Under the pieces are notes generated by a model. It searched no databases. It saw only the letters and a program-made list of their open reading frames with translations, and had not been told where the DNA came from. 64,000 nucleotides of DNA from assembly GCA_003569245.1 (NCBI GenBank), contig BGOM01000021.1:1-64000 (forward strand). Reading direction: 5' to 3'. Positions within the stretch are counted from its first letter, which is position 1; each line of letters begins with the position of its first letter. Both the position numbers and the translations under genes were made by a program. Below are positions 22,825 through 26,756 of this stretch, piece by piece. The DNA is from Opitutia bacterium (GTDB lineage Bacteria; Verrucomicrobiota; Verrucomicrobiia; Opitutales; UBA953).

Positions 22825-24750
22825 TCAGGCGGCGCGGCGCGGGCGATGGGCCAGCAGGCGGAGGCCGTTGAGGCAGACGAGGACGGTGCTGCCCTCGTGG
22901 ACGCCCACGCCCAGCGAAAGCGGCACGCCGGGGCGGAAGACCACGTAGGCGGCCATGCCGAGGGCGGCGCCGATCGAGATCAGGATGTTGACGCGGATCG
23001 CCCGGCGGGCGGCCCGGCTGAGTTCGATCGCGTCGACCAGCCGTTCGATGCGGTCGTCGGCGAGGACCACGTCGCTGGATTCGAGCGCCGCGTCGCTCCC
23101 GCGTCCGCCCATGCCGATGGCGACGTCGGCCGCGGCGAGTCCCGGGGCGTCGTTGACCCCGTCGCCGACCATCGCCACGACCCGGCCCTCGGCCGAGAGG
23201 CGCCGGATCGCGGCCATCTTGGCGTCGGGCGTGAGGGCGGCGCCGTAAGACTGGACGCCGACCTGCCGGGCGGCCACCGCGGCGGCCTCCTCGCGGTCCC
23301 CCGTCAGCATCACCGTGCGGATCTGGCGGGCGTGCAGGGCGGCGAGGGTGGGGGCGCTGCCCGGGCGGATCTCGTCCACCAAGGTCGCGCGCACGGTGAC
23401 GGCTCCGTCGGAGGCCCAGACTTCGCTGACGATGGCGCCGGCCGGCACCGCGGCGCCGGGGATCTCCCGCGCGCCGGTGAATTCGCGCGTACCGACGCTC
23501 CAGCGGGCGCCGTCGAGGGAGCCGGATACCCCCTGGCCGGGGGAGTTGGACAAGCCTTGGACCTCCTGCTGGAGCGCGCCTTCGGCCCGGCAGGCCGCGA
23601 CGACGCCCGCGGCGAACGGGTGCGTGGTGCCGGCTTCGAGCGAAAGTAACGCGGAGAGCGCCCGCCGCCGGTCGGCCGAGGCCGGGAGGACTTCCAGGGC
23701 GGCGACCACGGGAGTGCCGGCCGTCAGCGTGCCCGTCTTGTCGAAGCAGACGCAATCGACGTCGGCCAGCCGTTCCACAGCGGCGCCGCCGCGGAAGAGG
23801 ATGCCTTGCCGGGCGCCGGCGGCGATGGCCGCCAGCACCGCCGAAGGCACGGAGAGCACCAAGGCGCAGGGACTCAGGACGACCAACAGCGTCATCGCCC
23901 GATAAAGCGCCGAGTTCGCGGGGTCGCCGGCATCGCGGAAGGGGTGTCCGGTGAGCAGGAGGGTGACGAGGAAGAGGGCGGAGGCCGAGAGCGTGAAGAT
24001 CGCGTAGGCGTCGCCCCAGCGGTCGATCGCCCGTTGGGCGGGGGCTTTGCTCTCCTGCGCCTCGCGGATGAGCTTCACGATGCGGCGCAGGGCGCTGTCC
24101 TGTTCGGCCCGGGTCACCTGTACCACCAGGCGGCCCCAATCGTTGAGGGTGCCGCCCGCCACCGGGTCGCCGCGGCGTTTGGCGGCCGGCTTGGCCTCCC
24201 CGGTGAGGGTGGATTCATCGACCGCGCTCTCGCCTTCGCGCACCACACCGTCGGCGGGCACCAGCTCACCCGGCAGGATCGCGATGAGGTCGCCGGGGAC
24301 GAGCGCAGCCACCGCCACCTCCGTCTCCGTGCCGTCCGGGCCGAGCCGGCGGGCCTGCTTCGGGGAGCGGTCGAGCAGGGCGTCGATGGCGCCGCGGGTC
24401 CGGTCCATCGCGTAGTGCTCGATCGCCCCCGCGGTCGAGAACAGGAAGAGGAGGAGCACGCCCTCGAGCGGCTGCCCCACGATCCACGCCCCCGCGGCGG
24501 CCAGGAGCATGAGCAGGTGGACGTCGATCCGCCGGTGCCAGCGCAGCGCGTGCCAGCCTTCGCCGGCGGCCTCCCAGGCGCCCGCGCCGCTGGCGGCCGC
24601 GGCCAGCGCCCAGCGCAGCCAGGCGGGCCCGGCCGACAGCTCGGTCGCGAGCGCGCCGAGCCCGAGCAGGCCGCACGCGCCCGCGAGCGCGGCGAGCGTC
24701 CGCCATTCCCCCGCGTGGTCGTGGCCATGGTGGTGAGGGTGTCCGCTCAT
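22825..24750 (-). CDS. P1B-type (P1B-4 / CoaT-CtpD-like, SPC motif) metal-transporting ATPase
   Basis: His-rich N-terminus MSGHPHHHGHDH, TGEAKPAAKRRGDPVAGGT, SPCALVLSVPSAVLAAIA, CFDKTGTLTAGTP, MVGDGVNDAPGLAAADV, HEGSTVLVCLNGLRLL. Confidence 0.93.
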   Translation of the reverse strand: MSGHPHHHGHDHAGEWRTLAALAGACGLLGLGALATELSAGPAWLRWALAAAASGAGAWEAAGEGWHALRWHRRIDVHLLMLLAAAGAWIVGQPLEGVLLLFLFSTAGAIEHYAMDRTRGAIDALLDRSPKQARRLGPDGTETEVAVAALVPGDLIAILPGELVPADGVVREGESAVDESTLTGEAKPAAKRRGDPVAGGTLNDWGRLVVQVTRAEQDSALRRIVKLIREAQESKAPAQRAIDRWGDAYAIFTLSASALFLVTLLLTGHPFRDAGDPANSALYRAMTLLVVLSPCALVLSVPSAVLAAIAAGARQGILFRGGAAVERLADVDCVCFDKTGTLTAGTPVVAALEVLPASADRRRALSALLSLEAGTTHPFAAGVVAACRAEGALQQEVQGLSNSPGQGVSGSLDGARWSVGTREFTGAREIPGAAVPAGAIVSEVWASDGAVTVRATLVDEIRPGSAPTLAALHARQIRTVMLTGDREEAAAVAARQVGVQSYGAALTPDAKMAAIRRLSAEGRVVAMVGDGVNDAPGLAAADVAIGMGGRGSDAALESSDVVLADDRIERLVDAIELSRAARRAIRVNILISIGAALGMAAYVVFRPGVPLSLGVGVHEGSTVLVCLNGLRLLAHRPRRAA

Positions 24751-24762
24751 GCGACGCAGGCT

Positions 24763-24853
24763 GTCGTCGCGTCGACGGACGGTCAATCTCGCGGTCGCGT
24801 CGCGCGCGTCGTCGCGTATCGAATTCATGTTTACGAAAAGCGCGTCGCGACGC
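24763..24853. promoter_or_regulatory. Candidate operator array (four CGTCGCG motifs) in divergent promoter region
   Basis: CGTCGCG at 24765, 24798, 24810, 24843; the last lies in the perfect palindrome GCGTCGCGACGC (24842-24853). Confidence 0.4.
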
Positions 24854-24939
24854 CGAAAAAACTTTCGCGCGTTAACTGAAAATTCCTCTTGCGCAAGCGA
24901 GAGTTATACTTATCAATCTCACCAAGAGTTAACCGCAAC

Positions 24940-25335
24940 GTGACGAACCGAACCGAAACCCCGAGCGAAAGTCTCATCACCGTGTCGCTTCCCCCGAAGC
25001 TTCACGCCGAGGCGGTCGCCTTTCAGCATCGGTCCGGTTTCGCCACGCTGAGCGAAGTCATCCGGCACGCGCTGGATCGCTTCGCCGACTCCCGCCCGGC
25101 GCTCGAGCCTTCTCGTTCCCGCCAAGTTTCTTTCCGCGTACCGTCGGAGCTCCGCACTCGCATCACCCGTCAGGCGCGTCAGGCGCAGGTGAGCGTGGGG
25201 CGCATCGTCAGGGTGGCGCTTCAGGCGCTGCCCTCTAACCCAACAACGATCCAAAAAAAGGAAAAAACTATGGCTAAAAAGAAGGCCGCCGCTAAGAAGG
25301 CGACCAAGAAGGCCACCAAGTCCAAGAAGAAGTAA
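24940..25335 (+). CDS. Tandem ribbon-helix-helix (RHH) DNA-binding protein with C-terminal histone-like lysine tail
   Basis: Two RHH-like units: SLITVSLPPKLHAEAVAFQHRSGFATLSEVIRHALDRF and RQVSFRVPSELRTRITRQARQAQVSVGRIVRVALQAL. Tail MAKKKAAAKKATKKATKSKKK. GTG start preferred over the TTG start of the ORF track because a TATACT -10-like box overlaps the upstream part. Confidence 0.7.
   Translation: MTNRTETPSESLITVSLPPKLHAEAVAFQHRSGFATLSEVIRHALDRFADSRPALEPSRSRQVSFRVPSELRTRITRQARQAQVSVGRIVRVALQALPSNPTTIQKKEKTMAKKKAAAKKATKKATKSKKK
25270..25335 (+). CDS. Possible separately translated 21-aa lysine-rich histone-like peptide (nested in frame)
   Basis: AAAAAGGAAAAAACT-ATG gives an SD-like AGGA at good spacing; product MAKKKAAAKKATKKATKSKKK. 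Confidence 0.35.
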   Translation: MAKKKAAAKKATKKATKSKKK

Positions 25336-25393
25336 TTCTTCTGAGACTGTTCCGTCCTTCGGGATGGATGGCGCCGGTATCCCCGGTTTACAC

Positions 25394-25425
25394 AAGGACC
25401 CTCGCAAGGGGGTCCTTTTCTTTTT
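25394..25425 (+). terminator. Rho-independent terminator after RHH gene
   Basis: AAGGACCC-TCGCAAGG-GGGTCCTT-TTCTTTTT. Confidence 0.85.
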
Positions 25426-25493
25426 CCGGGCGGCCCGACCCGATATAGGCTTGAAAGGGTGGGGCGGGGCGGGGTTTGTTATCGGCCTCGACC

Positions 25494-26756
25494 ATGAGCA
25501 CCCCCATCCCCGCCGGCGCCGGCAAAATCACCATTTCCAACGGCAAGCTGACCGTCCCCGACCGCCCCATCATCCCCTTCATCGAGGGTGACGGCACCGG
25601 TCCGGACATCTGGCGCGCCTCGGTGCGCGTCCTGGACGCCGCCGTGGCCAAGGCCTACGCCGGCAAGCGCCAGATCCAGTGGCTCGAGGTCCTGGCCGGC
25701 GAGAAGGCCTTCAACCGGACGCAGAACTGGCTGCCCGAGGAGACCCTCACCGCCTTCCGTGACTACCTCGTCGGCATCAAAGGTCCGCTGACCACCCCGA
25801 CCGGCGGCGGTATCCGCTCCCTCAACGTCGCCCTGCGCCAGCAGCTCGACCTCTACGTCTGCCTCCGCCCCGTGCAGTGGTTCACCGGCGTGCCTTCCCC
25901 GGTCAAGAACCCGGGCAAGGTCGACATGGTGATCTTCCGCGAGAACACCGAGGACATCTACGCCGGCATCGATTTCGAGGCCGGTTCGGAGGTCGCCCTC
26001 AAGACCCTGGAGTTCATCAAGACGAATTTCCCGAAGGAGTTTAAGAAGATCCGTTTCGGCGCCGAGCAGCCCGCCACGGTCGGCATCGGCATCAAGCCGG
26101 TCTCCCGCCCCGGCTCCGAGCGGCTCATCCGCTCGGCGATCCAGTACGCCATCACCAACAAGCGCAAGTCGCTGACCCTCGTCCATAAGGGCAATATCAT
26201 GAAGTACACCGAAGGCGCCTTCATGAAGTGGGGCTACGACCTCGCCAAGAGCGAGTTCGGCGCGGTCGAGATCGACGGCGGCCCCTGGTGCAAGATCCCC
26301 GAAGGCAAGCCCGGCGCCGGCCTCGTCATCAAGGACGCCATCGCCGACATCACCCTCCAGCAGGTGCTCACGCGCCCGACCGACTTCGACGTCATCGCCA
26401 CGCTGAACCTGAACGGCGACTACCTCTCCGACGCCCTCGCGGCGCAGGTCGGCGGCATCGGCATCGCCCCGGGCGGCAACATCAACTACCTGACCGGCCA
26501 CGCGATCTTCGAGGCCACCCACGGCACCGCGCCGAAGTACGCCAACAAGGACGTCGTCAACCCGGGTTCCGTCGTTCTTTCCGGCGAGATGATGCTCCGC
26601 TACCTGGGCTGGACCGAAGCGGCCGACCTCGTGCTCAAGGGCCTGAACGGCGCCATCGGCGGCGGCCGCGTCACCTACGACTTCGCCCGCCAGATGCAGG
26701 GCGCCACGGAGATCAAGTGCTCCGAGTTCGGCGACGCGATCATCGCGTCGATGTAA
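25494..26756 (+). CDS. icd: Isocitrate dehydrogenase (NADP)
   Basis: [92 protein letters not shown]. Confidence 0.96.

Follow-up and report, generated by a model that had tools for sequence, protein, structure and literature searches.

Within the window (the whole 64,000-nucleotide stretch of Opitutales DNA that was analyzed), a single gene very probably encodes two products in the same frame: a tandem RHH protein fused to a histone H1-like tail, and the H1-like tail alone as a free peptide begun at an internal ATG. The frame, the ATG, the leader and Shine-Dalgarno (SD) sequence before it, and a hairpin farther upstream are all conserved, and the tail exists elsewhere as a free gene. The parts of the gene are as follows.

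24940 to 25335, plus strand: full-length open reading frame of 131 amino acids, with a GTG start, two RHH motifs, a linker, a lysine-rich tail and a TAA end
24973 to 25086, plus strand: first RHH motif (approximate limits), from the alignment and predicted helices 19-32 and 37-47
25123 to 25233, plus strand: second RHH motif, from a PF01402 match at residues 63-96 and predicted helices 69-82 and 86-95
25270 to 25335, plus strand: internal ATG and 21-residue H1-like tail (MAKKK...), from conservation of the junction Met and the free tail genes of loci L260 and L259

Both marks of the RHH family, the strand-helix-helix motif and a family match, were found in the long product. In a Pfam search the second RHH half passes the PF01402 cut-off, and in the PDB both halves match CopG, NikR, and ParD with weak E-values. 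The predicted fold, modeled as a monomer without assigned strands, contains two helix pairs (mean pLDDT of 83, pTM of 0.43); among its best PDB fold matches RHH proteins predominate, again with weak E-values. In its evolution the RHH part behaves as a protein, with invariant residues whose codons have undergone up to 12 synonymous changes. The 21-residue tail, MAKKKAAAKKATKKATKSKKK, has no Pfam match, and PF07382 (histone H1-like HC2) is without a match in the window's genome, the similarity being one of composition only. In the tail-bearing related loci the RHH-to-tail junction is free of stops, and a fused RHH-tail product is to be expected throughout them. The GTG start of the long form is kept in all 47 congeners (distinct sequences of the same genus). 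Since this GTG has no clear SD in the window, initiation may be stronger at the internal ATG.

The start signals for the second product lie within the linker codons.

25235 to 25269, plus strand: A/C-rich leader before the internal start, marked by synonymous constraint and A content
25258 to 25262, plus strand: SD sequence AAGGA, 7 nt 5' of the ATG, present in 45 of 47 congeners

An internal ATG at 25270, preceded by AAGGA at 25258-25262 with 7 nt between, had been put forward in the original prediction as the start of a free peptide; these elements were confirmed, and comparison with orthologs shows that they are retained. Among tail-bearing members gathered from 31 genera and 11 families, a Met at the junction of linker and tail is present in 108 of 132 genomes, in at least half of the sequences of 21 of the 31 genera, and in 9 of the 11 families, so that an in-frame start codon is conserved inside a conserved reading frame. 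The linkers around this Met vary in sequence and in length (7-17 aa). Elsewhere in the tails, where Lys makes up 46% of residues, Met occurs 3 times in 9823 residues, and the junction Met is almost always followed by Ala, Pro, or Val. These three are common second residues of bacterial proteins. Within the window's genus, the length of the free peptide would range only from 16 to 22 aa. The remaining 10 of the 31 genera fall short of a junction Met in half of their sequences, and the free product is therefore not universal.

In genus g4, SD-type sites are AAGGA, GAGGA, or AAGGAG and fall in codons for different amino acids (Lys-Asp, Glu-Asp, or Lys-Glu). In genus g52 of family f21, AAGGA at the 7-nt spacing is found in 3 of 3 sequences with the junction Met. 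No SD sequence was seen before the junction Met outside families f1, f21, and f24; in such families initiation would depend on A-rich context, known to be sufficient without an SD sequence in E. coli (PMC7043885). In 19 of 21 genera the linker is richer in A than the RHH region. (A short UCC/GGA pairing, extending up to AUCC/GGAU, was observed in the leader at 25249-25263 of the window and at the equivalent positions of L144, L145, and L151; it could partly mask the SD site.)

In the window's genus the leader has an A content of 55%, versus 16% for the RHH region. Using the simplifications of parsimony and independent codons on a tree of the 47 distinct congeners, 4.29 synonymous and 1.55 amino-acid changes per codon were counted in the RHH region (codons 13-88), versus 0.33 and 1.42, respectively, in codons 101-112 directly before the ATG; in total counts this is 326 versus 118 for the RHH region and 4 versus 17 for the leader codons (Fisher P = 7e-7). 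Of all 12-codon windows in the gene, that of codons 102-113 varies least at synonymous positions. For comparison within the gene, codons 1-12, at the start of the long form, have 0.70 synonymous and 0.60 amino-acid changes per codon, and the values for codons 89-100, the hairpin stretch, are 1.08 and 0.17. Because the linker peptide changes freely while its silent positions are frozen, selection must act on the nucleotides and not on the linker peptide, as would be expected of a ribosome-loading region rather than a protein linker. Features of a ribosome-binding site and constraint on nucleotides are found together in the genus, while most other families lack the SD sequence. The conservation of the ATG and its leader strongly suggests something more than chance.

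These data bear on a simpler view, in which the fusion is the only product, the Met is left over from an earlier joining of two genes, and some other cause accounts for the constraint on the leader. A fusion event is plausible, given that a free tail gene exists in some genomes. However, the Met persists in 9 families whose linkers have diverged and is nearly absent elsewhere in the tails, the SD spacing is kept through different amino acids, and the synonymous sites directly before the ATG are frozen; this view is judged improbable.

The same A-rich leader contains the sequence on which a different claim was based.

25254 to 25260, plus strand: A_AAA_AAG heptamer, which arises from the A richness of the leader and is not a conserved frameshift site

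It had been proposed that a programmed, dnaX-like -1 frameshift at this heptamer yields an untailed RHH protein, making three products from one locus. In the window the heptamer does lie in X_XXY_YYZ phase (codons CAA AAA AAG GAA AAA ACT ATG GCT, in the frame of the GTG at 24940), and the sequence confirms that a -1 slip would read GGA AAA AAC TAT GGC TAA, with its stop close by. It is also present at its site in 28 of 47 congeners (a count of 34 of 47 is reached only by including GCA AAA AAG in the tail). In the other 19, however, AAT, ACT, or a deletion replaces AAA at the site, and the codons at this position in g4, g5, and other families are unrelated. Since the heptamer is not conserved in orthologs, being lost in other genera and families, the frameshift is rejected. 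The surroundings also differ from those of dnaX, where a stem-loop downstream and an SD sequence upstream would be expected: here the strong hairpin (25210-25234) is 5' of the heptamer and not 3', and AAGGA overlaps the heptamer, leaving no dnaX-like SD spacing. Furthermore, the untailed RHH proteins of family f14 arise through a plain stop at the tail junction. Programmed frameshifting is consequently considered extremely improbable; on its distribution the heptamer is no more than chance, following from the A-rich leader. The ortholog data thus correct the frameshift idea, and of the additional products foreseen, the free peptide is upheld and the frameshifted RHH protein is not.

The hairpin itself falls within the final RHH codons.

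25210 to 25234, plus strand: RNA hairpin, AGGGTGGCGC-TTCAG-GCGCTGCCCT

Its stem of 10 to 11 pairs recurs in g1, g4, and g5 of the window's family, the genera that carry the leader and the ATG, with compensatory changes such as those from A-U to C-G, from G-C to A-U, and from C-G to A-U or G-C. The covariation score is 0.330, versus 0.232 for shuffled data, and is reached in 0 of 500 shuffles; 90% of the hairpin cells are paired, versus at most 60% in slid controls. The number of pairs changed on both sides is not above that in shuffles (114 of 500), and so the covariation support comes from the score and the paired cells. When compared with a null of random synonymous codons encoding the same peptide, all 13 lineages with the leader (three genera) fold better (P at most 0.033), and 0 of 26 lineages without this leader do so at the stem. 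The stem is absent from g3, the one f1 genus with a tail and without the junction Met. Widening the test as far as the ATG costs about half of the g4 lineages their significance, which argues that the signal belongs to the stem itself. An Rfam search for a known RNA family gave nothing near the gathering score. (Stems at shifted positions between the RHH region and the junction Met were seen in other families, at L062 of f24, L064 of f22, and L207 of f21, the last in one genus; none of those tested was above the synonymous-codon null.)

The near-palindromic arms of the hairpin, together with the fact that RHH proteins bind repeats, could be taken to mean that the element is a DNA inverted repeat, an intragenic operator bound by the RHH protein, and not an RNA structure. 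Yet several of the pairs are G-U wobbles, which would be mismatches in DNA, the pairs change by compensation rather than keeping one sequence, and a genome search allowing up to 3 mismatches finds the sequence a single time. An operator of this kind is disfavored, in particular by the wobble pairs and the single genomic copy, and has little probability.

Two features follow the gene on its downstream side.

25394 to 25427, plus strand: terminator-like hairpin and T run 3' of the gene
25494 to 26756, plus strand: isocitrate dehydrogenase gene (icd), the downstream neighbor, conserved in order and strand

The icd gene keeps the same order and strand in those g1 and g5 loci that extend to it, in two g4 loci, and in several of f21. 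In genome G070 (locus L260), the flanks common to its congeners G207 and G151 are present but the RHH part between them is missing; the tail remains, starting from the same ATG and preceded by a remnant of the leader (CTAACCCC...ATGCCTAAGAAAAAA), and no RHH match is present in this 99% complete genome. In G074 (L259), which belongs to another family, a free tail gene lies upstream of icd, as the tail does in the window, and an RHH match is absent from the genome, the assembly being only 82% complete. From these two arrangements it is clear that the tail can stand alone as a gene. Together with the start codon, the SD sequence, the synonymous sites, and the hairpin, the free tail genes give strong support to the predicted free peptide.

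A free tail could also be made from its own transcript, through an internal promoter or through processing of the mRNA at the hairpin, instead of through initiation on the full-length mRNA. The hairpin is positioned directly 5' of the leader, as would suit a processed 5' end, and the aerR gene has two offset promoters plus an internal start (PMC6199135). On the other hand, the conserved block shows nothing resembling a promoter, and a scan of 24700-25520 found no σ70-like promoter, a scan that also missed the gene's own promoter. This route is thought rather unlikely; in any case it would leave the outcome unchanged, with the tail separately translated from the same ATG. For the gene itself, a candidate lies upstream.

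24889 to 24917, plus strand: promoter-like pair TTGCGC-N16-TATCAAT 5' of the RHH start, read by eye from 16 aligned upstream regions of the genus

The TCCTCTTGCGC of this region is conserved through the genus. The consensus promoter scan made no call at the pair, which is only a putative promoter. (The stretch at 24884-24917, TTCCTCTTGCGC, followed by TATCAAT-like bases, is nearly invariant in the genus 5' of the RHH start and may serve as an unusual type of promoter or as an autoregulatory operator.)

In the mechanism favored here, that of one gene with two same-frame products, ribosomes starting at the GTG at 24940 would produce a DNA-binding protein that has its tandem RHH in a single chain and ends in a lysine-rich, histone H1-like tail, and ribosomes starting at the internal ATG at 25270 would make the free H1-like peptide. 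AAGGA and the 35-nt A/C-rich leader, which has low predicted structure, would guide internal initiation. In the window's family, the hairpin formed by the last RHH codons would close off the leader on its 5' side, and may keep it accessible or mark a processed 5' end. We infer that both products are made, as we do their ratio and binding targets: fusion would carry the basic tail to the sites recognized by the RHH part, whereas the free tail, acting as a small nucleoid-associated protein, would attach to DNA (or some other polyanion) in general. A further step, that the hairpin and the frozen leader form a regulated switch setting the ratio of targeted (RHH-fused) to free H1-like protein, perhaps through a product that binds its own mRNA, is speculative and on balance unlikely.

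The gene organization is of a known kind, and the protein family is undescribed. In SpaO/SpaO-short and related type III secretion genes, an internal in-frame start gives a C-terminal isoform (PMC13059759). As in that system, one gene in one frame would give a full-length and a C-terminal product, with conservation across several genera; unlike SpaO, the protein is unrelated, the free product would be a low-complexity basic tail instead of a folded domain, and in the window's family the internal start has a conserved hairpin before it. AerR has long and short isoforms through an internal CTG start, shown not to result from proteolysis (PMC6199135). Like the gene described here, aerR encodes a regulatory protein whose second isoform begins at an internal start, the isoform being a predicted one here; however, the AerR start is at codon 41 and its short form keeps most of the protein, whereas the short form here would be without the DNA-targeting domain.

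The two parts of the protein have separate precedents. Histone H1-like proteins include chlamydial Hc2 and Pseudomonas AlgP (PMC2848022, PMC9239181), which share with the tail low-complexity, lysine-rich repeats, of variable length in Hc2 and here, but which are free-standing genes, whereas the tail is mostly fused to the tandem RHH. F-plasmid TraY is a single-chain RHH protein (PMC12117103) and, as here, has a full RHH dimer fold in one polypeptide; unlike the present protein, it is a conjugation protein without such a tail, and no significant sequence match to it was found. CdbA of Myxococcus xanthus is an RHH nucleoid-associated protein (PMC7156744). It resembles the present family in its RHH fold, with a weak match, and serves as a precedent for an RHH nucleoid protein. 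We know of no tandem RHH or lysine tail in CdbA. A literature search found no paper that describes this family of Opitutales proteins, the RHH-tail fusion, or the internal start.

If both products are made, a gene family spanning the order encodes, in one frame, one histone-like protein that is targeted to DNA and another that is free. This would be a way of setting the dosage of a chromatin protein that is undescribed in the literature found, and its free peptide, hidden within a longer reading frame, would be easily missed by gene callers. It would also offer a testable case of a covarying RNA structure that overlaps a coding region beside an internal start and, were the regulated switch to operate, one gene would tune how the chromosome is coated.

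As to the distribution of the family, a tandem-RHH profile search matched 252 of 376 Opitutales genomes, nearly always in one copy, and elsewhere in the class gave weak and partial matches only. A single-protein scan returned 41 named MAG loci, mostly from Opitutae/Verrucomicrobia; the closest named relatives of the window genome, itself a metagenome-assembled genome of the Verrucomicrobiota, are mostly uncultured Opitutae MAGs, many of them lake-derived judging by isolate names. Many members of f14 (e.g., L233, L240, and L244) consist of a tandem RHH and a short basic stub with no tail. In three other Opitutales loci (L262, L263, and L265), a Lys-rich, H1-like N-terminal part is joined to a conserved domain, VDIGWGNNLYIRGEGGGLSW-like; these proteins are a different fusion with the same kind of tail.
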